In this document: positions 42,761 through 64,000 of the stretch, piece by piece
How the letters are laid out: each line of letters starts with the position of its first letter
How positions within the stretch are numbered: the first letter of the stretch is position 1
DNA from: Acephala macrosclerotiorum
Taxonomy: Eukaryota; Ascomycota; Leotiomycetes; Helotiales; Mollisiaceae
Direction of reading: 5' to 3'
DNA: 64,000 bases
Assembly: GCA_014904845.1 (NCBI GenBank)
Contig: MU119435.1
Location: 25,651 to 89,650, forward strand
Made by a program: the position numbers and the translations under genes
Notes under the pieces: model-generated
What the model was told of the DNA's origin: nothing
Databases searched by the model: none
Seen by the model: only the letters and a program-made list of their open reading frames with translations

Positions 42761-44458
42761 ATGGATTATCAAGAAAAGAAAGGCCCAGAGCCTGATCTGT
42801 ACCAAACAGATTCCGGTCCTCGACAAGGTCAAGTGACTCGAATTAAGAACTTGCGGGATCTTGAAGAGATACCTTCAATATGGACAAAAGTGCATCTCTT
42901 GAGCGAGGGATTGGGTGCAGAGACAATTGGTGTCGAGCAATTACCTGAAGAAGCAAGGAATCCAAATCAGAAGCCATACAGTAAGTCTCCCCATCATTCA
43001 AGTGTATCAATCGCTCACCACTGCTGTCAGGTACCTTCTTCGTCTGGAGCACTGCCAACTTCCATTACTCTGCATTCACAACTGGAGCTCTAGGGCCACT
43101 TCTCTTCGGCCTCGGATGGTGGGATTCATTCCTCACGGTCATTTTCTTCAACTTTTTGGCCGACCTCGCGCCAGGCGTTATGTCATACCTCGGCCCAAGA
43201 CTCGGAATGCGAAGCATGATCATTGTCAGATATAGTTTTGGATTCTACTTGAGCAAGGTGATCGTTCTTTTGAACGCTATCACTTGTATTGGATGGATTA
43301 TCATTAATACCGTCGCTGCTAGTGGACTCTTGTATGATGCGACTGATGCCAAAATGCCTTTGGTGGTGGCTATCATCATCATCTTGGTTGTGTGAGTAAC
43401 TCTGGCCCCTTACGCCTCGGAATTTTGCTGACGACATTCTAGGTCTTTGGTGGCTTCATTCCTCGGATACCGCGCTATTCACCTTTACGACAAATACGGC
43501 TGGCTAGTCCTCATCGTCCTCTCCATAATCGTCGTTGGCTTCGGCGGAAAACACTTTGTTAATGTCCCAATGGCCAGAGATGATGCCCGTCTCGGCGTTC
43601 TCTCCTACGGCGCTCTCGTCTTCTCATGGGGAATCACCTGGGTTCCTCTCACTGCCGATTACTCCCTCTACATGCCCAGCAAGACACCAAAATGGCAAAC
43701 GTTCCTCTGGACCTTCAGCGGAATCTACATCGGCTCCACGCTCGCCTTCTTAATCGGTGTTGCTATTGCCACCTTGATCTCAAACCCCGATCCATTCTAT
43801 AACTTCCCTGCCGTCTACGATGATCGAGGAATCGGTGGTTTGGTTGGAGCTATCTTCGAGGGCCATGGAACTGGAGTGCGAGGATTCGGTCGCTTTATTG
43901 AGGTTCTTCTCGCACTTTCCATCATGGGCGCCAATATCCCAAACATCTACTCCTTCGGTCTTTCCATACAAGCAATCTCTACCTGGACACAAAAGATCCC
44001 TCGCATTCTTGTCACACTCTTCGGATTTGCCGTTGCCCTCACAGTCTCCTGCATTCTCAGAAACAGATTCGTCGAAGCTTTGGAGAATTTCTTGAACGTG
44101 TTGTCTTATTGGTGTACACCATTCGCCGCCGTCGTGATGACGGAGCATTTCGTGTTCAGAAGGAAGATTGGGTATAATGTTGAGGATTGGAGCAGACCAG
44201 GTGGATTGCCTACGGGAATTGCGGCATTTGTGGCTTGGGCTTGTGGTATCACGGCTGCGTTTATGGGGGCTGATCAGACGTGGTTGGTTGGGCCGGCTGC
44301 TAAGAGTATTGGTGGAGCTGATATTGGGTGGGAATTGGTGAGTTCTCCTCGCAAGAGACGATTTGAGAAAGGCTGCTTACTAGTTACAGGGTGCTGCTGT
44401 TGGAACTAGCGTGTATCTGATCACGAGAACGATCGAGTTGAAGATGACCCATCGATAA
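42761..44458 (+). CDS. Purine-cytosine permease (NCS1, Fcy2-like)
   Basis: Four exons (42761-42980, 43031-43391, 43443-44337, 44390-44458) give 514 residues, the usual size. Fcy2-type carriers are plasma-membrane H+ symporters for adenine, guanine, hypoxanthine and cytosine. Landmarks: a hydrophilic N-terminus ending GVEQLPEEARNPNQKPY, then FVWSTANFHYSAFTTGALGP, GLGWWDSF, LGPRLGMRSMIIVRYSFGF, ITCIGWIIINTVAAS, TADYSLYMP, MGANIPNIYSFGLS and a final helix pair ending with RTIELKMTHR. About 12 helices. All splice sites are standard. It lies 111 bp from the convergent UstYa-like gene and could be unrelated to that locus or serve it; many fungal genomes have several such permeases. Confidence 0.9.
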
Positions 44459-44569: not shown

Positions 44570-45613
44570 TTAAATCCTCTCAGTAACAGGCGAAGGGCCA
44601 ACAATCGACTGAATATCATCCAACCTCCTCTCCTCAATCCACTTCACCGCCTCTTCCCTATTCCTACACATATGCGCCTGTCCCTCCCCAGTCGCATCAA
44701 GCACACTTTCGCTTCCCTCCAACGTCATATCCGCCATACACATGATCTGATTCCTCAGATACTCAAAGCAGTGTGCAGCATGATAGTCGTTTCTCTCGCC
44801 TTCGAACCCGAATTTCGTGCCGTTGCTGATGACGAGTTGGTGATAGGAGTCTACGGTGTAGTAGAGGCAGTGGAGAGCGTGGGTCCAGCTGGCTTCGAAA
44901 ACGGGGCCTTTGTGAATTGGGTCGGTGACGATGGGTTTCCCGAGCATGGGGTGTTGCTTATAGTCCGGGATTAGGACGCTTCCGCTTCCAACTATTTGCT
45001 GTTAGAGAAGAGAGGAGTTGGGGAAGGAGAGAAATTTACGAGGCATCAACATATCCCAGTTCCTTCGGATTTCCATTCGGTTGGCGTCGGTGCTCATGTT
45101 TGGGACGAACTTCTCCTCCTCGGGAGTAAGTAATGTGTACTTATGGCTCGCTGCACAGCTTCTAGTTAGTATATACTTGAGTTCTCGATGTTTGTTCGAC
45201 TTACTTGGAATATAGAGTCCGTTCACATCGCCTCCAGTCTCAGTCTTACTCGTGTCCCACCCCGAAATCCCTCCACTCAAACCTCCCGATTTCGACCCTC
45301 CTGTCAAACTGCTCAAATTCCAGCCCTCCTCAGTCAACACTCCACTCGTCGGCAATAGTAGCATAATAATGATTCCTTGAAGGAAGATTACTATTCCCCA
45401 TCTTGACCAGGTGAGGATAGTGGATAATTTAGAGGAGTTCTCGTGTCGTGAGATTCTTTTGGCACTGTTTTTGCGCAGGAAACCATCTGATGCGAGGGTG
45501 GTTTCCGAGTCGTTGTCGTTGTCCATGTGGTCGAGGTGGTCGAGCTCGTCATTCTCGAGATCGATGTCAAGGGAGGCGTAGCGATGAGGATCTTCTTTGA
45601 TGAGAGGCGCCAT
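44570..45613 (-). CDS. UstYa-like (DUF3328) oxidase-type membrane protein 1
   Basis: Three exons (45205-45613, 45040-45150, 44570-44991; introns 54 and 48 nt) give 313 residues. Layout: acidic cytosolic N-terminus, one membrane helix at about residues 72-90 (IVIFLQGIIIMLLL), Gly/Ser-rich linker, then the globular domain. Both diagnostic copper/metal-type motifs of the family are present: HALHC in SWTHALHCLYY and HAAHC in DYHAAHCFEYLRNQIMC. UstYa/UstYb proteins carry out oxidative macrocyclisation of the core peptide in ustiloxin and other dikaritin RiPPs, and related proteins act in other secondary-metabolite pathways. A second UstYa-like gene and a repetitive secreted protein lie within 4.5 kb, which supports a RiPP-type role. 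The C-terminus adds a helix EEAVKWIEERRLDDI. Confidence 0.88.
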
Positions 45614-47159
45614 TTTGAGCTAATTTGACTTGGTTTTATGTGAGATCGAGGTGATGGGGAGAAAATTGATAGAAACGAATGTAATGAACGAGAGATTGAT
45701 TAACAGAACGAAGATTCCAGCTTCCAGAAAGTAAAGAAACCAGTTCTTGCGTCAGAGGTTAACAACCAAAAATCGACTCAGAAGACCTCACAGAGGATGA
45801 GAACTTAGGAACCACAATCACGAACGTACAAACCTCAGATGGACACCAAGCACCAAGAAAGCCATGCGCACATCAGACACTAGTCCTCCTCCTCACCCTT
45901 CACCCCCACATCCATCACGGTTTCATCCGTTTTGACAAATCTCAGATCTCTACGATCTAAGCAGATAGATTTTGTTCGTCTCGGGTTGCCGCTTGCTTAA
46001 TCAACCCCTGAGTCGGGAGTATCGCCGAAAGGCGGGGCGTGCAGGGTAAGATGAGACGACTTCCGCGCCAGGGGGAACGCGTTATCTGATCGAGAGGAGA
46101 CAGGCATGTGGTGCCGAATTCTGTTTCGAGGTTTGGAAATTCGGAGATTTTGTTTCGATGGTTGAGACGACGTAGTGTTCGAGTGCCGTAAAGGGGGTGC
46201 GGGTTGGATGAAGAGCTATATTGAGGGAGATGGGGAAAGGAGAATTTACGAGAGGCAGGTGCAAGTTTTGACGATAGTTAAGTTCATTAATATTGTGAAG
46301 CATAGTTTCTATACCTATCTCCTAATCTTCGGGTGTTATTTTGTTCCTTCTGAGAGAAGAAACAATTTTTGTTCTCTAGTGAGACTTCACCGTCACTTCG
46401 GCCAAGCTTTTCTCAAACCAGCGCAGAGACGCCAACACTATAACTCAAAAATGTAATTACAGATTGGGCACTAACCAGCAGATCCCCGAATAGAGAAAGG
46501 AGTTAATCTACGAACCCTCTCCGCTGCTGATATGAGCATGTCCGTTCAATTCTATCTTTGTCCCCAGAACTAGCCCTGGTTCGCGGGCTTTCAGTCTCGA
46601 TGAGCATTGTTTCACTGCAATCACGTCTTCTTCATCTCAGCTTCTCCACCAGTCACTAGAGGGAACTGAGAGGATGTTGGCGTCCTAGAATTGCTCCACT
46701 GTCTAGAAATGGAAAGAAGCTTAACGGATGGAGCAGAAGCCTCGACCTCCTCCAGGGGGACAAGAGCAATTCAAAAGTCGAAACAAAGAGGGCCTCCCTT
46801 TCTTCGGACCTCTAATTCAAGGGGCACATTTCTTTAAGGATTGAAGGAAATGGGCCCGGCACAGCAGTCCCAAATTGACTTGGAGCCGATGCACCGCTGA
46901 CGCGGACACTGAAAAGCTTGGCTGATGGATATTAAGCATTGCTAAGGAGAGCATAACCGCACTGGCAAAGCGACAAGTGATCAACAGGCTGCCTGGCGAA
47001 CTTACTACATCAGACTTCAAGACAGCAGAGGGGATGCTTCACTTGAGCTCAAGACGGGAAATCCGTAAAATGACGAGTTTAAGGTTTAACAAATCGCCAT
47101 AAAAATTGCTTGATTATGCTTTGGCTTGCTTCTAAATACACGCTTTGAAAAGATCTAGT
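45614..47159. other. Intergenic, 1.5 kb, between the two UstYa-like genes
   Basis: No supported gene. It contains the promoter of UstYa-like 1 and the 3' flank of UstYa-like 2. A missing small precursor gene would be hard to see here; I found no repeat of the HHTEAQIA type. Confidence 0.4.
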
Positions 47160-48086
47160 TCAGTTCGGGCTAACATCCCCTCTCTCCATATTCCCAACAG
47201 AGTTATCCAACGCCCAATCCCTCACCGCATTGAAGTTTCGGCACTGATGGTAAGAGTTAAGTTCTGGCCATGGAAGTGGGTCGCGCTCAAGAAGGTAGAA
47301 AGTGAAGACTCCAACGTCCGCGTTGCACTGAACATTCATTCTCAAGATCTCGAGACAGTGATCGGTGTGCATCTGCAGCTCCTCATCACCTCCAGCAAAG
47401 TTACCATTACCGAGCTCGACGTAATGGTCTTTATATGTTACTTGTCGCAGGAGATTGATGCAGTGAAGCTGATGGAAAACTTCGAGGCCGACTCTGTAGC
47501 CTTCTACTCCGGTCTTTGGGTGTTTTGCTCTAAGGTGGGTTTTGGGCATGCCGATGATTTCTAATTCTTCGTCTGTGATGACTTGGTCGCCAACTACTCT
47601 GTGTCAGAGCCGATGTTGATCTATTAGATGGGATGCACTTACTGTCGTAAGAGATCGCGTGCCACGCTTTGTCGACCTCTTCACCCTTGCCAACGTATGG
47701 TGATCCCTCTCCCATCGTTGCATTGAATTTCACTCTCTCGTAGTGAACGGCTTCTGCAGCAGGTGCTAATGAATTATCAGCTGTGTCCAGTGCGATCGAA
47801 CATCAAACTCACAATACGCCGAAAACTTTCGCACGTGGTCTAATGTTGAAGCTTTCGTGAACATCGCCGACATGAACATTGTGAATGAAAGTAACAGCAG
47901 CACCGCATGCACCAGCCACATCCATTTCCCACTGAACCTCGATCTTGGCTCTGGCTCTCTATGATCCTCCTCATCCTCTAACAGCGTGGAATCCGAAGTC
48001 GAAGTCGAAGACCGTCTAGGAAACACCTCCGTGAACTTCTCATCATTCTGAACAGCATGGTATTTGGATGCCATAATCGCGATCAA
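47160..48086 (-). CDS. UstYa-like (DUF3328) oxidase-type membrane protein 2
   Basis: Three exons (47813-48086, 47643-47765, 47160-47593; introns 47 and 49 nt) give 276 residues, or 272 if translation starts at the better-placed MASKYHAV (48074). The acidic cytosolic N-terminus is followed by one membrane helix at about residues 56-74 (WMWLVHAVLLLLSFTMFMSA), then the domain with YERVKFN, the block GKGEEVDKAWHAISYD, and both family motifs: HQLHC in EVFHQLHCINLLRQ and HTDHC in QMHTDHCLEILRMNVQC. It is a more canonical family member than UstYa-like 1. It is transcribed away from the tandem-repeat precursor gene, and the two start codons are 1.28 kb apart, so a shared divergent promoter is possible. 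Paired UstYa proteins are the normal state in dikaritin loci. Confidence 0.9.
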
Positions 48087-49363
48087 AAATTAACTCCTGG
48101 CCAGCAAGTGATGAATAGAAAAGAAGGTTAAATGAGCGAATGTACTTGACCAGAAGCAATTGCTGAGAATGGGAAAAGAGAGAGGGAACAGAGAAACCTG
48201 AACTTGAGGCTCAAAAGAATGAGGGAATACCAATTCATGATGGTGCAATTTCGAGTGGGTACAAGTGCAAGCGAACCAGGGCGTCTGATCGCTCCCGTCA
48301 GATTATGCGAGACAGAAAATCATCTATTTTCTGAAACGTCACGACTGGACTCGCAATGTTTGGAGCTACCGAACAAGAACGTCATGGGGACGCCCAGGAA
48401 ATGAAGACCTAAAGGATACTGAAACCCGTGATGAGGACAGAGATGGCCTATATGGAGGCCAGGAACATTCTGAGAATAAAAAGTAGACGCCGAGCTTGTC
48501 GGAACCCAATCTGGTCTTGGCCGACTTTTCGTTGATATCGCGATTGAGTTCTTTGAATGACTCCGAGATGTCAATTTCGTGAATTTGCCTTCAAGGCATA
48601 AATTGCCGATTGCATTTTGGATGAACTCGGTGTTGCATGTGCGCTGCATGAATTTTGACTTCATCCCAAGTCTGCGCGTATCAACCTGCCTCTAAACCGT
48701 GCCGTTTCCCGAATACCAAGATTTCAGCGCCACGAGAATGGTTTCGTGCAGACGCCCATGACTTGCATCATCGGATATCGCTTCCACTTTCGCTTTCTGC
48801 TCCTACAGCATTGATGTTGAGGGATATCTCGAAGTGCTCTGAGACAGTAGATCTGGTTGGTTAGGCTACTCCTTCCCCGCGTTACCTGTCACGCTGCCCC
48901 TGTCGCTAAATCTCCGTGCATCAACCCAACCCAGAGAGCCTCCATCGAGATATCGTGGCAGTTTCTGGCGGCAGCCAGTGTTTGACTGATGGAGGAGAGA
49001 CACGATTCCGTCATCTTCGGATATGATTAGATCCTGGAGACTTGGCTAAGGCTAAATTTGAGTGCTGGAATTAGGGTCCGCGGGTCATCAATCAGTTTCT
49101 GTCTCGAACTCGTTCATGGATTGAATTCAGACTTCCTAGTCGTCCATTGTCTGAAGTTGGCTGTCGCGACAGCAGGGACGTGCTGGTGCGTGTAGTCGTT
49201 GAGCTCCAAAATGACCTGATGTATAAAGTAGAGTACGCCTCTTGCTTATGTTCTCAAATCCACTCACACCTCATCCGCTCACTGACCCACCTCCATCTTC
49301 CGACTTCACTTCACTCGTTTATACTGCCGGCCAGTGATTTTATCATTCATACACTCCTTCAAC
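48087..49363. other. Intergenic, 1.3 kb, divergent region between UstYa-like 2 and the repeat precursor
   Basis: No gene supported. The right end (49230-49363) is a pyrimidine-rich 5' leader typical of strongly expressed fungal genes. Confidence 0.45.
49222..49227 (+). promoter_or_regulatory. Candidate TATA box of the tandem-repeat precursor
   Basis: TATAAA, 137 bp upstream of the precursor ATG, followed by a long CT-rich leader (CTCACTGACCCACCTCCATC-like). This arrangement suggests an efficiently transcribed gene. No start-site data. Confidence 0.45.
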
Positions 49364-50739
49364 ATGTACACTTCAGTTTCAAACATTGTTACTTTGGGCC
49401 TTTTGGTCTCAGCGCCGTTGACATCGGCCTATGTCATCCCCGGTAAAGCCGCTGAGCTTGACAAGAAGGATATTGTGAGCAAATTACAACACGCCATATT
49501 ACAACACGCATGCTGATAAATGATAGGGAGGTCCACTTTCCTGGGTCAGGTCTGTCCTTCCTTTGGATGCTAGACACCACACCGAGGCTCAAATTGCTGT
49601 AAGCCACATTGCCCGCCACATTGACCAAAGACCATGCTGATGGATACAGGCCGAGAAAGCCAAGGCTGGTGCCAGAGATGTCGAGATCTTGGAGACAAGA
49701 CACCACACTGAGGCTCAAATTGCTGCTAAGGAGGCAGAGACTGTCAAAGCTGGTCGTGGTCTTCAAGACAGAGACCCACACCACACCGAAGCACAAATCG
49801 CTGTAAGCATCGTCCACTTGGGTGCATAAACACAGAACTGACATCAATGTAGGCCAAAGAGGCAAAGGCCGGCGCTCGTGATGTCGAGGCTCGTGAGCCC
49901 CATCACACTGAGGCACAGATCGCTGTAAGTACCACTCACTTGAGGATATATCTACGGAGCTGACAAACCTACAGGCCAAGAAAGCTAAGGCTAGCGCTCG
50001 TGATGTAGAGATTGAGGAGCGTGAGCCCCATCACACCGAAGCCCAAATCGCCGCAAAGAAGGCCAAGGCAGGAACACGCGACCTTGAAGACCGCGAGCCA
50101 CACCATACTGAGGCTCAGATTGCTGCAAAGAAAGCCAAGGCCGGTGCCCGTGACATCGAAGTCGAGGCCCGCGAGCCCCATCATACTGAAGCTCAAATCG
50201 CTGCTAAGAAGGCTAAGGCTGGCGCCAGAGATGTCGAGGTTGAAGCTCGTGAGCCTCACCACACCGAAGCCCAGATTGCTGCCAAGGAAGCCAAAGCCGG
50301 TGCACGCGATGTTGAAGTTGAGGCTCGTGAACCCCATCACACCGAGGCTCAAATCGCTGCCAAGAAAGCAAAGGCTGGAGCTCGTGACGTCGAAGTAGAG
50401 GCCAGAGAACCCCACCACACCGAAGCTCAGATTGCGGCAGAGAAGGCTAAGGCTAGTGCCCGTGATGTTGAGGATATCGAGGCTCGCGAACCCCACCACA
50501 CCGAGGCTCAAATCGCCGTAAGTCCTTTGAGATTGCAACATCCATTCCCAATGCTGACAATATCACAGGCGGAAAAGGTCAAGGCAGGTGCTCGTGACGT
50601 CGAAGAGCGTGAAGCCCACCATACTGAAGCCCAAATCGCAGCAAAGGAGGCAAAGGCCGGTGCCCGTGATATCGAGGAGAGAGATCCCCACCACACTGAG
50701 GCTCAGATCGCGGCCAAGGAGGCGAAGGTTGGCAACTAG
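49364..50739 (+). CDS. Secreted tandem-repeat protein; candidate RiPP/KEP-type precursor with 13 HHTEAQIA repeats
   Basis: Six exons, all ending between codons (49364-49474, 49527-49598, 49650-49802, 49853-49924, 49975-50517, 50569-50739), give 373 residues. Residues 1-22 are a signal peptide (MYTSVSNIVTLGLLVSAPLT, cut near SA), followed by YVIPGKAAELDKKD. The rest is 13 repeats of about 26-28 residues: (A)REPHHTEAQIA, then AKKAKAGARD, then VEVEA or a variant. HHTEAQIA is invariant in all 13; the KK is KE or EK in several units. The repeats contain no Tyr, Phe, Trp or Cys. Possible processing sites are the KK pairs and single Arg residues on both sides of the core. Two UstYa-like oxidase genes upstream and an M35 protease downstream make a ribosomal peptide pathway plausible. 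Alternatives: an uncyclised Kex2-processed repeat protein, or an intact His-rich metal-binding secreted protein. Confidence 0.82.
49575..50712 (+). repeat. Coding tandem repeat, 13 units around HHTEAQIA
   Basis: Unit length in the large exon is about 78-84 bp. Copies per exon: one in exon 2, two in exon 3, one in exon 4, seven in exon 5 and two in exon 6. Introns 2 to 5 all interrupt the repeat at the same place, right after the Ala of EAQIA, and each has a GTAAG-type donor. Third-codon positions vary between units while the peptide core stays constant, which indicates selection on the peptide. Confidence 0.9.
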
Positions 50740-55363: not shown

Positions 55364-58308
55364 ATGCGACCTATGCTATTGTTTGTTATTTTTGGTGTAG
55401 TGAGCTGGAGTAGTGCAGCTTCTTTGTTCGATGCTTTGCCAAGAGTCATCAATCGCGATCGGCCGTTCATCAAAACATCAGTATCGGTGTCGAACAGCCT
55501 CGATTGGATCGTCGACAGCAATATCACCCATGCGCCAAAGCGCCTGTCTCCTCGGGGTACGTCCGCTTGCCCCGAAGACGTTGGCGCGCAACTTTTTTCC
55601 TGCAATGACTGTGGTGGTGAGAATTCAACATATGTCGGGCATTGCTTAGGTCTGAATCCGGGTGGTATGCCGTGTCAATGTAAGTTCTAGCTCTTCCCAC
55701 CAGGCGGCGGCATATGTACATCAAGGGTTTACGCTACTAGGCACGAATGTCAATTCGACCCACGTCCTGTCAACCGTCACTGCAACCCAGTCTACTCAGA
55801 CTGTGGTTGCAACCTATGCTCTTGAAACCATCTCCTCATATACTGAACTCCGACAAAGCATTACGACCACTCTCACAGCATCGAATACTGCTACAGGCGA
55901 GGTTGAGACCGCTGCTGCTGTCGTTCTAGCCGGGGGCGTTTCCTGGTTCCTCGCAGGTTTGTCTTCGTATTTTGGTCATGTGTGGAAGCTACTAAGTACC
56001 GACAGGGTTTGTTGGTGACGCTGGAGTCGCTGAGAGTATCCTAAAGGCCCCCAAGGAAGCCGATGGCCATCCTGATGATAATACTTGCCCAAACCCAGAA
56101 TTATCTTGCAGCGAGTGTGGTGGAACAGCGAGAATGTGCACAACTGGTGCGAATGTCGGCTGTGCTTGTGAAGCATCGACATGCCCCTCTGGCGATCAAG
56201 CGCCCAAATGCTCGGACCGGAACTGCAGTCCGGATACCAGCAATAAATGCACCCTGGAGAATGCTGGATGTGATTGTGAACCAGCCGAGGAGTGTCCAGG
56301 GACAGATGATCCAACTCAACTTCTTACTTGTGATGAATGTGGAGGCAGCGTGGAGGGTTCTGATGGGGTATGCAAAGGGGTAAGAAGAGACAAGAATCTT
56401 GAGCCCCTACACGACCTAGAGTATTTATTTGACTAACAATCCAACCTTTGTAGGACCCAGCAGATAATTATAGGTACAAAGATTGCGATTGCGACGACTA
56501 TCAACCATCAGATCCAAAATTCGATTGCGACTACACTCCACTCCGCGACCCTTCATCGACAACCGAGAAACAAGACACCTTGGCTCTTTTCAAGAATCTG
56601 CCCAAATGGACGGACGCCAGCTATGCCAAGGACGCGAATGATCCAGCCAATGACGCCGTGTGCCAACAAGCAGGATGGGCAGCTCCCCAACGCGACCCAG
56701 ACGGCAGCCCCAGTGTGAGTGATTCCGCGACAGCCTGGTGTACGGCGATGGACGGCAAGACGGTCACAAGCGATGCAACCGGACCCGCTGTCCAATTCGC
56801 CATGTATCCCACTTCGTATTATGCCTTCTGGCTCTCTGCAGCTTTCTGGAATGATGCGCCAGCCGGAAATAATTGTAGTACTACAAGCACAATCTCCAAA
56901 GATGAATGCGAGAATACGTTGAATGTAGCCATGATAGCTTGTGATCCGAACTCCGGCGCAAGTCATGGGGCATCTTTGACAGGCAGTTGCATTCAATACG
57001 TAAGTCTTGAATCAAATAGATTGTAGAAAAGACTGACCACATTGCAGAACATTACTCTGAGTACCGACACAGACCCCCAAAATCCTCCCTGGAATCCTCT
57101 TCCTCAATCTGCCTTACCAGTCTGCGATACGCTCGTCTCAAGCGGCATAAACAACAACTTTTTCGCTGGACTATATCCACAGTTCTGTAATCTGATAGAG
57201 GGAGGGGATAAGACCATCCCAGCGACGAGTGACTTCACCAACACCGACTTCAAAGCCCCCTCCAAAAGATCTCTTGACCCTAGGACCCCACCAGCAAGCA
57301 ACAAGGAATATGACGGTTCCAAATTTCATTTCAAGTGGACCGGAAGCTCAGGCACTTGTCGAACAGATTGCTATGGGGCGTACCAATCCATCATGACGTC
57401 CTCTTGTGAGTTTCGATTTCTGAGTGTCATGAGACGCTCATTGACCTCAAAATATAGGTGGCAACAGCGGCTCGCAGTCTAACTCAATGACTCTTGAAGG
57501 CTCTGTAAACGTAGGCTGCGGAACGTATACATTCGCTATCGAGAACCCAGCTGATGACCCTCCACCAACACCAGAAAGTAGGTGCAATGGGACGTCCGAT
57601 GGGTACTACGTTTCGGGTGCCTCTATCTATGCCAGCTACCCAGACTTTTGCACTAAAGTAGCAGCATTAGGCCCCGCTCGAGGCGGCACCGTTCATACAG
57701 AAACATATAACGACCAGACTCCAGACAAGGTGAATATCGCTGCGACCTTTCCGGGAGACGACGGCACGCTCTACCCTCAGGTTTCGGCAGGTGATTGCAA
57801 CAGTGCCATGAAAAGCTTTCTCGACACATGCAACGTCGCCGGGGACACAAATCCACTGAACTACAAAAACGGTGAGAAGGAATTCAAGCAGATTGAAAGA
57901 TTAACATCAACTGAACACTGGACAGGTGGTTCGTTCACACTGAACTCAATCCTCTATAGCATCAGCCCCATCAATCATCGTCGTGATTCCCGGCCCGCCA
58001 GAGCCAAAGACTCTTGCTGGATGTGGTACAAGTTTCTCTTCAACACCTTCGATATCCAGGGCTATGGCTTTGCGGATGCTGACTCTGGTGATGCATTGCT
58101 TCACCACATTCGAAGCTGCGGCGCGGTGACCGGATGGAGTTTCCAGTATTATCCCTCTGGGCTCACTGACCCGAACAATTATGACGAGTATGAGTGGCAT
58201 GCCTCAGGGAAGTTGCCAATCGGGCAACAACAATGGTCTTGCATTGGGAACGCGATATCGGCTGCAAGCAATGGAAGCACGGGGGGTGGCGGTTGTTCTG
58301 GGCAGTAA
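55364..58308 (+). CDS. Large secreted cysteine-rich protein of unknown function
   Basis: Seven exons (55364-55679, 55741-55956, 56006-56379, 56454-56999, 57048-57405, 57458-57871, 57926-58308) give 868 residues with every junction in frame. A signal peptide (MRPMLLFVIFGVVSWSSAAS) is followed by three short Cys-rich modules sharing C-x2-C-G-G: SCNDCGGEN.., SCSECGGTA.. and TCDECGGSV.., each ending in a C-x-C. A Thr-rich stretch lies between the first and second. From about residue 320 a larger Cys-containing region begins (YRYKDCDCDDYQPSDPKFDC) and reaches a C-terminal part with SFTLNSILYSI and a Gly/Ser-rich tail. The Cys modules resemble those flanking chitinase domains in GH18 'killer-toxin-like' fungal proteins, but I see no GH18 catalytic motif. 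Likely extracellular; function not assignable. Confidence 0.78.
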
Positions 58309-59200: not shown

Positions 59201-61660
59201 ACAATCAATCGTATATAAACAATCGAAAATATCGTTAAAAAAAGTATTCCAAAGTATAATTAATTCGCAAAATAAAAAAAATTAATATATATATTAATAA
59301 TATTAATTTAATTTATTATAAATTTTTTAATTATATATTAAAATAATAAATAAAAATATTAATATTATTTAAAATTTATATATATTTTATTTTAATATTT
59401 TATAAAAAAAAGATTTCGTTTAATAATTTATTAAATAAATTAATAATAAAAAAAGTTTTTTTTTATTTAATATATATTTTATTTTATAAATTTTATAAAA
59501 TTTTTAATTTAAACTTTTTATAAATATTTAAAATTAAAATAATTATTAAATAATAAATTATTAAGTTTTTTAATATTTATTATAAAATATATATTAAATA
59601 AATAAAAACTTTTTTATTTATTATTAATTTATTTAATAAAATCGTTCAATAATTTTTTTTATAAAATATAATAATATTTTATTAATTTTAATTAAAATAA
59701 AAATAATTAAAATATTTTTTTTATTTTTAAAAAAATTCGTTTGTCGATTTATAAACGAATTAATTAACGAACGAATTTTTTTTTTAAAAGTATATTTTAC
59801 TTTATAAACTTCGTAAAAACGTTTTATAAAAAATTATAAAATTTTTTATTTCAAATTTTAAATTAAAAACCTTTAATTTAAACGTTTTATAAACATTTAA
59901 ATTATTAAAATAAAATAATAATTTAAAATTTTCGTTTTATATTTAATTATTACGATTAATTTAATCGATTTAAATTATTTTATTTAATATATAATTTTAA
60001 AAAAAAAAATTTAAATTTTTTTTTTAAAATTTATTTAATATTTAAATAAACGTTTAAATATTTAAAATAAAAAATACTTTTAATAAAATTTTATATTAAA
60101 TAAAACATTTTAAAATTTTCGTTTTTTATATTAAATTATAAATATAATATTATAATTATAAAATTTCGAAATAATAAATAATTATTTTAATAAAAAATAT
60201 TAAAATTTTATATTTATAAATTATTAATTAATTTAAATTATATAAAATTTATAAATAAATTAAAATTTAATTAAATATTTTTATTAATTCGTTATTATAT
60301 AAATTAATAAAATATAATTATATTTAATAAAAATAATAATTATAAATTTTTTTTAAATATATTTTTATTTTAAATATTTTTATAATTATATATTAAAAAA
60401 AAAATTTAAATTAATTAAATAAATTATAATAATTCGATATTATTAATATTATAAAAAATATTAATAATTATTAATAATAATTAATTAAATATATATAAAA
60501 CTTTTTTTAATTTTTAATATATATATTAATTTATAATTAATTAAAATTATTTAAAAAACGAAATTTAAAATATAAAAACTTTATTTTAAAAATAAAATAA
60601 TATTAATTATATACAATTTCAAATTTTACGTAAATATTATATAATATTTATTTTAATATTAATAATTTTTTTTATAATAAAAACGTCGTCGTTTTTAATA
60701 ATTTAAATAAATAAATTTTAAATAATAATAATATTAAAAACAAATATTTTTTTATTTATTTATTTTTATATTTATTTTTATTTTATTATTTATTTTTAAT
60801 TTATTTTTTTTATTTATATTTTAAAATAATTAATATTTAAATTTTTTTTTAAAATTTTATTAAAAATTAATTTTATTATAATATTTATTAAATTATTTTA
60901 ATTTTTTATAATTTTTTTTATTTATATAATTATTAAAATATTAAAAAATAAAAATTTATTTTACGATTATATTTATAATAAATTTAATTATTATTTTATA
61001 AATTTTTTTTTTATTAATATAAATATATTATTTATTTATATTTTAATAACGTTAAATATATATATTTTTTTAATTATAATTAAAAAATAAAAATCGTATA
61101 TAAACGTAATTATTAATTATATATAAATTTAAATAATATTATAAAATTATATTTTAATTATTTTATTTAAAAATTAAATTAATAAAAATATAAATATAAT
61201 AATAATTCGTTAATTAAATTTTTAAATAATTAAAAATTATATTAAAATTTATTATTATTATTATTATATTTTTAAATTATTAATTTTTTTTATTAAAATT
61301 TTTTAAATAATTTTTTAAATATAATAATTATATTTTTTTATAATTATAATAAAAATTTATTATTATTATTATTATTATTTTTAATAAATTTTTATTATTT
61401 ATTTTTTATAAAATATTTTAATTATATATATTTTTTTATTTATTATTAATAATTTATATAAGTTTTTTTTAAATTTTTTATTATTAAATATATATATTTA
61501 AAAAAAATTTAATATTTAAATTATTTTTTATTATAAACGTATTTATAATTTAACGTTTAACGTATAAATATATTTTTTTTATAAATATATTTAAAAAAAA
61601 TTTAATTATTTAAAATATTATTATTAAATTTATTATTTATAAAATTAGTTTTCTATTTGA

Positions 61661-61692
<32 letters not shown>

Positions 61693-64000
61693 AATAATTA
61701 AACTTATAATTATTTTATAAAACAAATTTAAATTTTTTAAATAATTTATTATATATTTAATATTTATAATATAATTTATATATTAAATTATTAATATAAT
61801 TATTTATTTAATATAAAAATTAATATATAATTGATTTAATAAAAAATATTAAATTTTTAATAAATATACAATTATAATTATAAATTATATAAAAATTGCA
61901 AATATATTAAAATTTAATTAAATATTTTTATATTTTAAATTTTAAATAATTTTATTAATTTATTATTATATAAATTAATAAAATTTAATTATATTTAATT
62001 AAAATAATAATTATTAAATTTTTAAATATATTTTTATTTTAAATATTTAATATATTATATAAAGTTTTAAAACGATTTTAAAATTTGTATAAATAATTAA
62101 AAATGTTTATAAAAATATTAAAAATAAAAATAAATATATAACGTATAAAAATTTTATTATTTTTAATATTAAAATTTTATAATTTTTTAAATAAATTTTT
62201 TGTAAAATAATTATTAAAATAATTAATTAAAAATATAAACGAGTTTTTATAAAAATTTATATTTAAAATAATTAAATTTTAATCGTTTTAAATAATAACG
62301 AATAAAAATTATTAAAATTAATTTAATAAAAAACTAAATGCGAAATATATTATTCAATAAATAAAAAAATTATAAAATTTTATTTTATTTTAAATTTTAT
62401 TAAATAAATTAAAAATATTTAAATTATTTTTTTATAATTATTTTTTAAATAATTTTTTAATACGTTTAAAATTATTATAATAATATTTAAAAATTTTAAT
62501 AATAAACGTTTTATTAAACGTATTAAAATTTATATAAAAAAAAAAATTTAAAATTTTTTGTAAAATTATAAATATAATATTTTTAATAAAAAAATAATTA
62601 AAATTTAAATAAAATAAAAAATATTAAAAAAAATATTAAAAAAAATATTAAAAAAAATATTAAAATTTATTTTTAATTTAATTTAAATAAAAATATTTTT
62701 TTATATTATAAATATAATTTAATAAATTTATAATTTAAATTAATAAAATAAATATTATTTTTAAAAAAAAATAATAAAATTTTTTTTTTTTTATATATAC
62801 AAATAATAATAATAAATTTTAAAATTTTTTTAATAATTTTTTTTATTACACGTTATTAAAAACGTTAATATTATTAAATAAATTTATAAATTTATAAATA
62901 TTCGAATTTAAAATATTAAAATTTTAAAAAACGTTTAATTTTTAAATTAAATATTAATTTTAAAAATTTATAATAATTATAAATTAATTAAATAATTTTA
63001 TAAAAAATAAATTAAAAATAATAATAAAAAATAAAACGTTTTATAATTATAATTATTTAATTATATATTTAAAAATAATAAAATAATAAAATAAATAAAT
63101 ATTAAAATTAAATCATTATTTAAAAATAATTAAATTATATATATATTAATAATAATATATAAAAAATTAATATAATAAAACGAATTAATAAAATAATAAT
63201 AAAATAAAATAAAATAATAATTTAAAATATTTAAAAACGAATATTATTTAATAATTAATAAAATAATAAAAAAAATTAAATAATTATATAAATTAAAATT
63301 AATTAAAATTAAAATTTTTATTAATAAAAATAATTTAAAATTAATAAACGTTTAAATATTATTTGAAATTTTTTTTTTTTTAAAAAATATATTAAATTAT
63401 TTAAAAAATAAAACGAAATAATTAAAATTAAAAAACGCGATTAATTATTATAAATACAATATTAGTTTATTAGTCACGTGCGATACTAGGAGTCACGTGC
63501 GATACTAGGCCAGATCGGGACTAGCGCCGCTTGCGCTAGAATTAAAATTATATTTTTCGATTTTTATATATTTATTAAATTTATAATTTATAATTAATTA
63601 ATAATATTAATATTACTAAAAATACTTATTATTAATAATAAATTAAAAACGAAATAAACAAATAAATTAAATAATTCGTTAATAAATTATAAATTTTAAA
63701 TTTAATAAATACATAAAAATTGAAAAATATAATTTCAACTCTAGTACAAGCGGCGCTAGTCCCGATCTGGTCTAGTGTCGCACGTGACTACTAAACTAAT
63801 ATTGTATTTATATTAGTAGTTTTTTTTTATAATAAAAATTAATTTAATTTAATTATTTAAAAAAAGTAATTTTTTTTTATTGTAATTTATTAATATATAA
63901 AATTTATTAATATTTTAATATAAAATTATATAATTCAATTTTAAAAATAATATTAATAAATTAATATTATTTTTAAAGTTTATTAAAAATTATAAATATT
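59201..64000. other. Extremely AT-rich block, RIP-like isochore, runs off the right edge
   Basis: From about 59,220 the sequence is almost entirely A and T, with no open frames of note. The few remaining C/G are clustered as CpG: in 59701-60060 I counted 18 C residues, 12 of them followed by G. This is the appearance of transposon-derived DNA after exhaustive repeat-induced point mutation, or of a subtelomeric/centromeric AT isochore. No transposon protein can be recognised any more. The only non-AT island is the inverted-repeat element at 63449-63812. Confidence 0.8.
63449..63812. repeat. Inverted-repeat (foldback) element inside the AT-rich block
   Basis: The left arm (63449 to about 63598) and right arm (about 63666 to 63812) are reverse complements with scattered transitions. 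Both arms share TATAAATACAATATTAGTTT, then AGTCACGTGCGA-ACTAG, then CCAGATCGGGACTAGCGCCG followed by CTTG and an AT-rich inner part. The left arm contains an extra 19-bp direct duplication (63472-63490 and 63491-63509). The element looks like a MITE or foldback whose GC-rich arm ends resisted the mutation seen all around. GTCACGTG occurs three times (twice left, once right). Confidence 0.75.

Follow-up and report, generated by a model that had tools for sequence, protein, structure and literature searches.

A 64,000-nt stretch of the genome of Acephala macrosclerotiorum (Leotiomycetes, Helotiales, Mollisiaceae), hereafter the window, contains a three-gene locus that resembles the biosynthetic loci of dikaritins, a group of fungal ribosomally synthesised and post-translationally modified peptides (RiPPs). 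The window spans positions 25651-89650 of contig MU119435.1 (C234) in an assembly of 69.66 Mb and 778 contigs. Two intact minus-strand genes, g1 and g2, encode UstYa-family (DUF3328) oxidases, and a divergently transcribed gene encodes a repetitive precursor, the hydrophobic N-terminus of which was taken by eye as a signal peptide (Table 1). The UstYa profile (PF11807) matches g1 with 61.8 bits and g2 with 183.6 bits (Pfam, cut-off 25), and both proteins have an N-terminal membrane helix recognised by eye (a single one in g1) and two HxxHC motifs (H211ALHC and H244AAHC in g1, H170QLHC and H205TDHC in g2). Matches of g2 include the metagenome protein P0025 (97% identity) and a protein from the Mollisiaceae, a part of the Helotiales (92% identity over 76% of the length). 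All gene models were derived solely from splice consensus sequences and the reading frame. They agree with the original prediction from the DNA alone in the two DUF3328 proteins with intact paired motifs, the divergent precursor with exactly 13 repeats, the strands and the outer boundaries, 44570 being the end of g1 and 50739 the end of the precursor gene. The stretch between g2 and the precursor gene is presumed to be their shared promoter region.

The precursor array is conserved at the level of the peptide. All 13 HHTEAQIA cores differ in their DNA sequence, and the 78 pairwise comparisons show 324 nucleotide differences, all of them synonymous, which rules out chance repeats. The spacers have a ratio of non-synonymous to synonymous differences per site (pN/pS) of 0.127, calculated for the 11 of 12 spacers that can be aligned without gaps, one spacer being omitted. 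Since all core differences are synonymous and the spacer pN/pS is low, the peptide itself is being kept, rather than the repeats reflecting recent DNA copying. As predicted, none of the window repeats contains Tyr, Phe or Trp, and the only such residues in the precursor (Tyr2, Tyr23 and Trp43) lie N-terminal of core 1 (residue 54). One dipeptide follows the Arg in 11 of the 13 units and none in the other two. The precursor has no KR or RR site; KK occurs at residues 34, 138, 164, 188, 214 and 266, and the remaining basic sites are single Arg. The published criteria for Kex2-processed repeat proteins (KEPs) are at least three tandem repeats of at least 8 amino acids between KR, KK, RK or RR sites, none longer than 100 amino acids, and a signal peptide (PMC7329392, available in part). 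Four of the stretches delimited by KK fit these limits; the stretch ending at the second KK and the one following the last KK are slightly longer than 100 amino acids and also bear repeats. The five introns (50-52 nt) are all in phase 0, four of them lie at one position of the array, right behind HHTEAQIA, and exons 2 and 4 measure 72 nt each. With introns at the same in-frame spot and exons of this size, exon skipping would alter the copy number of the peptide while keeping the frame.

Table 1. Features of the three-gene locus, in window coordinates.
Feature	Position	Strand	Details
g1, UstYa-family oxidase	44570..45613	-	exons 45613-45205, 45150-45040, 44991-44570; 313 amino acids; PF11807
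g2, UstYa-family oxidase	47160..48074	-	exons 48074-47813, 47765-47643, 47596-47160; 273 amino acids; PF11807
Intergenic stretch between g2 and the precursor gene	48075..49363		1.3 kb; divergent genes; limits from the gene models
Precursor gene	49364..50739	+	exons 49364-49474, 49527-49598, 49650-49802, 49853-49924, 49975-50517, 50569-50739; 373 amino acids; 13 HHTEAQIA cores
Exon 1 of the precursor	49364..49474	+	signal peptide (by eye) and start of the leader, ending DKKDI
Core 1	49575..49598	+	straight after R; intron next
Core 2	49701..49724	+	straight after R
Core 3	49779..49802	+	after R-DP; intron next
Core 4	49901..49924	+	after R-EP; exon 4 is a single 72-nt unit; intron next
Cores 5-11	50029..50517	+	all after R-EP; first bases 50029, 50101, 50179, 50257, 50335, 50413, 50494; intron after core 11
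Cores 12 and 13	50617..50712	+	core 12 at 50617, after R-EA; core 13 at 50689, after R-DP

One protein search, which scored the 7995 candidates sharing most words, recovered 24 relatives of the precursor. Thirteen of them carry a species name: Talaromyces amestolkiae, T. stipitatus, Capronia, Ciborinia, Fonsecaea erecta, F. multimorphosa, Xylogone, Varicellaria, Icmadophila, Trichoderma chlorosporum, Trichoderma gracile, Scytalidium and Hymenoscyphus. The family spans at least four Pezizomycotina classes (Leotiomycetes, Eurotiomycetes, Lecanoromycetes and Sordariomycetes). Including the window copy, the 25 precursors yielded 151 units with search patterns that required HH, and 140 of these contain the exact HHTEAQIA. 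Thr3, Gln6 and Ala9 are invariant and Lys10 is present in 146 of the 149 units tallied by column, the two units missed by the pattern being HHTESQIA (P0006) and HHLPADVA (P0024). A separate check found one unit without HH, ADIEAQLAAL in P0002. Upstream of the core, 150 of the 151 units show an Arg followed by zero to five X-P or X-A dipeptides (no dipeptide in 30, a single one in 106). The sole exception is the first unit of P0020; in the same proteins this pattern ends at only 417 of 6129 other positions (6.8%). In alpha-pheromone precursors, X-A and X-P dipeptides that separate the basic cleavage site from the core are the signature of Kex2 and Ste13 processing (PMC9769878, available in part), suggesting that the mature peptide should start with His-His (His1). 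The genome contains one match each to the P_proprotein (Kex2-type) and DPPIV_N domains.

Variability within the family concerns the dibasic sites and a second peptide. KR and RR sites are absent from 4 of the 24 relatives and number 3 to 13 in the other 20. In 22 of the 25 precursors, a second repeated peptide containing Trp and Phe (DEFG[PS]W units) is interleaved with the His-His units, and an aromatic-free precursor, as pictured in the original prediction, is not the family's usual state. DEFGxW units are missing from the window, Ciborinia and Hymenoscyphus precursors, and all three of these have g2 or both oxidases alongside. A stretch of the Varicellaria precursor P0011, RPMNSGHGIPRRTNKR, resembles by eye a frame-slipped DEFGPWD unit.

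Gene neighbourhoods in other Pezizomycotina support a conserved association of the precursor with the two oxidases. A g1 or g2 ortholog lies within three locus-tag numbers of the precursor in 7 of the 13 named relatives and is known only on a contig of the same size in another 3, and the gene order of the window recurs in Hymenoscyphus and Varicellaria. These counts derive from clusters at 90% identity that bear one name each, so failure to see an ortholog does not demonstrate its absence, and for g2 they cover the best 120 of 141 relatives. Nearby orthologs were not seen for the remaining three relatives, nor was a UstYa gene near a paralog in the same genome (see below). The powdery mildews Blumeria (P0200) and Podosphaera (P0194) have a g1 relative, and none of the 24 precursors found is named as theirs. 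Another g1 relative, M419DRAFT_92860, belongs to Trichoderma reesei RUT C-30.

A genome search with g1 and g2 identified a second pair of this type (C70, 167975-172209). Its g2-like gene is the best match to g2, with 45% and 53% identity in two pieces, and its g1-like gene shares 47% identity with g1 (E 3.7e-11). The pair adjoins a small secreted precursor, modelled with 117 amino acids and one 56-nt intron, in which SLAVR is followed by HHKGAGGAGAATGGAGGAAAGLAALFGGAGKTGGANAATSNDKR and then HHKGAGGAGAATGG. Two of its units begin with R-HH (HHKGAGG), the second after KR, and it lacks the DEFGxW peptide. Beyond His-His the C70 core is rich in Gly and Ala and unrelated to HHTEAQIA, so that only the N-terminal His-His is clearly common to both. 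We calculated one tree from 30 UstYa sequences of this genome and 25 relatives, omitting four short or incomplete fragments and matches with E >0.2, and another without ten long rows of the same genome. In both trees, the minus-strand gene of C70 is the sister of the g1 clade (96/84; 92/83), and its plus-strand gene falls with g2 into a clade of 16 rows (98/93; 97/96). As both trees gave long-branch warnings on the g1 side, the grouping of g1 with C70 cannot be taken as certain.

We surveyed 21 of the genome's 29 UstYa places for repeat precursors, which are present at 9 of them. Repeated units starting with R-HH occur only at the window and C70 among these nine, and the other seven have cores such as EVGIYDYYAP, DEDALFWYKTG, SLEYNDNNAVEKR, DIESIRKR, EDADAGMSFYKEKR, AEAGADEYGAKWAKR and GEDLKGMF (C112). 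Precursors were sought as single open stretches with repeated 6-mers (by eye for C112), and those split by introns may thus be missed. A frame of 52 amino acids at C71 has two R-HH matches and no repeat, and was taken as a chance occurrence. The DIESIR repeats at C41 contain no aromatic residue, not even His.

Our preferred reading, to which we assign a probability of roughly 0.55, is that the locus represents a three-gene dikaritin-like module in which the oxidase pair modifies an N-terminal di-histidine peptide released by Kex2 and Ste13. The precursor would enter the secretory pathway, where a Kex2-type protease would cut behind Arg and a Ste13-type dipeptidyl aminopeptidase would strip the following X-P or X-A pair, as in alpha-pheromone maturation, and each precursor would give rise to numerous copies of a peptide beginning His-His-Thr-Glu-Ala-Gln-Ile-Ala-Ala-Lys/Glu. 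Both UstY enzymes, anchored in the membrane, would then oxidise this peptide and, if the analogy with the asperipin-2a DUF3328 enzyme holds, would do so as dicopper enzymes. DUF3328 proteins have been described as copper enzymes that cyclise, halogenate and hydroxylate (PMC12186524 and PMC12874468, both available in part). HHTEAQIA is the likelier substrate because three precursors without the Trp/Phe peptide keep oxidase genes alongside. As the cores found beside the two related oxidase pairs have nothing clear in common except His-His, modification is most likely at the N-terminal histidines. It may be an imidazole cross-link or an oxidation at a His beta carbon. Other systems offer precedents for a bond to His, among them noursin (PMC10206099). 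Histidine has been named among aromatic bond partners (PMC12874468), and its occurrence in RiPP cross-links has been called rare (PMC10206099, available in part). For HHTEAQIAAK, the computed [M+H]+ is 1105.575 unmodified, 1103.559 after loss of 2 H and 1121.570 after addition of O; for HHTEAQIAAKKAKAGA the corresponding values are 1631.898 unmodified and 1629.882 after loss of 2 H.

More tentatively, the g1/g2 and C70 pairs may constitute a separate class of RiPP machinery that joins or oxidises a mature N-terminal His-His regardless of the downstream sequence, for example through a bond from imidazole to carbon within the pair, a generalisation that we regard as possible rather than probable. 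If true, this would be a system conserved in several Pezizomycotina classes, the histidine-based equivalent of the Tyr-based dikaritins, and the peptide made might serve in copper binding or signalling instead of as a toxin. With a near-invariant core and one residue pair at one terminus, the question of the oxidase substrate is directly testable.

Several observations weigh against a dikaritin-like module acting on His-His. As the window precursor has neither KR nor RR, Kex2 would need to act at a single Arg or at KK, and the Trp/Phe peptide of the 22 precursors that keep it could be another, or even the main, substrate of the oxidases. The copper assignment of g1 and g2 is without structural support here: the sequence of g2 matched no solved structure up to E 1, and the fold of the AlphaFold model of P0025 (mean predicted local distance difference test score, pLDDT, 76.9) had no match in the PDB at E<=0.001 (35 listed at E<=10). 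The His-His argument consists of two precursor families in one genome, and the UstYa places at C104, C125, C136, C156, C2, C254, C296 and C37 lie outside the survey. Moreover, the C112 gene (40% identity to g1, E 2.0e-11) scores marginally above that of C70 and branches just outside C70 and g1, and its precursor contains ten copies of GEDLKGMF without R-HH. No neighbouring g1 or g2 ortholog was seen in 3 of the 13 named relatives, and the g2 ortholog of Xylogone lies on a contig of a different size. Finally, a shorter paralog of the precursor at C1:452263 (about 452.1-452.8 kb, minus strand) encodes three intact HHTEAQIA cores, one HHKST variant and an RR in the leader. No UstYa gene was found in the 19.2 kb around it (best E 0.62), and the genome profile search gave no PF11807 match on contig C1. 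This argues against a strict pairing of precursor and oxidases, and the paralog may use the window enzymes in trans or yield a linear product.

Such a linear product could also be the rule. The C1 paralog, with cores and no nearby UstYa gene, and the X-P/X-A trimming typical of alpha-pheromones (PMC9769878) both fit a pheromone-like secreted signal peptide on which the oxidases act little or not at all, or else they serve another substrate in trans. We consider this unlikely, since an ortholog of g1 or g2 was seen near the precursor, or on a contig of equal size, in 10 of the 13 named relatives, and since, in the available text of the KEP survey, precursors annotated as mating factor or pheromone lack accompanying DUF3328 genes with three exceptions, whereas 57 of the 64 precursors of KEP type G-3, discussed below, have them (PMC7329392). 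It is less probable still that the Trp/Phe peptide (DEFGPWDSTEDEFGSW type) was the substrate for which the oxidases evolved, and that they are relics in this fungus or act elsewhere. The prevalence of DEFGxW units would be in line with such an origin, but g2 or both oxidases persist beside the three precursors without these units, the precursor of the C70 pair lacks them too, and both window oxidases are intact.

Alternatively, the N-terminal His-His might be a metal ligand, making the product a copper- or zinc-binding secreted peptide whose binding is tuned by the oxidases. Noursin, a bacterial RiPP with a cross-link at His, needs that cross-link for its binding of copper (PMC10206099), and such a role would suit the N-terminal HH that recurs in two peptide families with no other relationship; still, a Pfam scan of 16 open window frames, which does not cover every exon, detected no metal-related domain, and we regard this explanation as quite improbable as well. 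It seems highly improbable that the repeat protein is secreted and functions at full length, for instance in the wall or at the surface. The window copy and 4 of its 24 relatives lack KR and RR, which would be compatible with an uncut protein, but the other 20 have such sites, and a trimming signature before the cores makes little sense if no cleavage takes place.

Beyond the locus, the same Pfam scan detected no tyrosinase, methyltransferase or flavin oxidase domain. Exons of a purine/cytosine-type permease (PF02133) lie just left of g1 at 43156-44409. Further to the right follow a frame with a lectin domain (Fungal_lectin_2) at 57487-58308 and an AT-rich block at about 59300-64000, with a GC content of 2.6% at 60001-62000.

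The cores of victorin and epichloecyclin differ from HHTEAQIA. A 2022 review, available in part, counts the precursors of both among five reported dikaritins (PMC10512285), a small number compared to the 1758 fungal repeat precursors that adjoin DUF3328 genes according to the KEP survey (PMC7329392). Open PubMed Central (PMC) texts, excluding figures and supplements, gave no match for HHTEAQIA and HHKGAGG variants, and one paper, on human peptides, was the only match for HHTEAQ, DEFGPW, DEFGSW or TEAQIAA. The core is also absent from the available text of a lichen RiPP survey (PMC12048977) and of Le Marquer 2019 (PMC6339444). Within this open library, no description was found of the trimming signature, of precursors built from two interleaved peptides and their absence in Helotiales, or of the related His-His pair. 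The trimming signature, the lack of the second peptide here and in two Helotiales, and the related oxidase pair are thus new here.

The locus itself is not of a new type, as had been proposed, because KEP type G-3 was already listed by Umemura 2020 (#6, Table 2) with 64 precursors from 59 strains and 20 genera, a di-histidine motif and DUF3328 genes within 15 genes for 57 of the precursors, and with no product given in the available text (PMC7329392). Judged by motif, genera and DUF3328 linkage, the window locus very likely belongs to this type: it is likewise from the Ascomycota, it has the di-histidine repeat motif with DUF3328 genes within 15 genes, and 13 of the 20 G-3 genera recur in the named relatives of the precursor, of g1 or of g2 (for g2, the best 120 of 141). 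The other di-histidine type described, G-8, has DUF3328 genes for 45 of 49 precursors and likewise no product in that text (PMC7329392). Of the ten genera represented by named precursor relatives, five are listed for G-3 and none for G-8. Judging from the motif and from g2-like matches in Pseudogymnoascus, Colletotrichum and Pyrenochaeta (again among the best 120 of 141), we would guess that the C70 family is type G-8. The C70 locus resembles the window in its related g1/g2-type pair and in units beginning with R-HH, while the window copy differs from 22 of the 25 precursors of its own family in lacking the Trp/Phe peptide, and has no KR or RR.

Compared to dikaritin loci, the window has both UstYa-family oxidases with paired HxxHC motifs and an adjacent repetitive precursor. 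In contrast, ustiloxin, phomopsin and asperipin-2a are cross-linked at Tyr (PMC7329392), which the window cores lack, and the scanned frames contain none of the tailoring domains named above. With alpha-pheromone precursors, as far as described in the available text (PMC9769878), the precursor shares a putative signal peptide, repeated cores and X-A or X-P dipeptides between the basic site and the core. It differs from them in having single Arg or KK instead of KR or RR, in the absence of Trp from the core and in its UstYa neighbours. The HHTEAQIA family hence joins pheromone-type trimming with UstY genes, which annotated pheromone precursors almost never have (PMC7329392).

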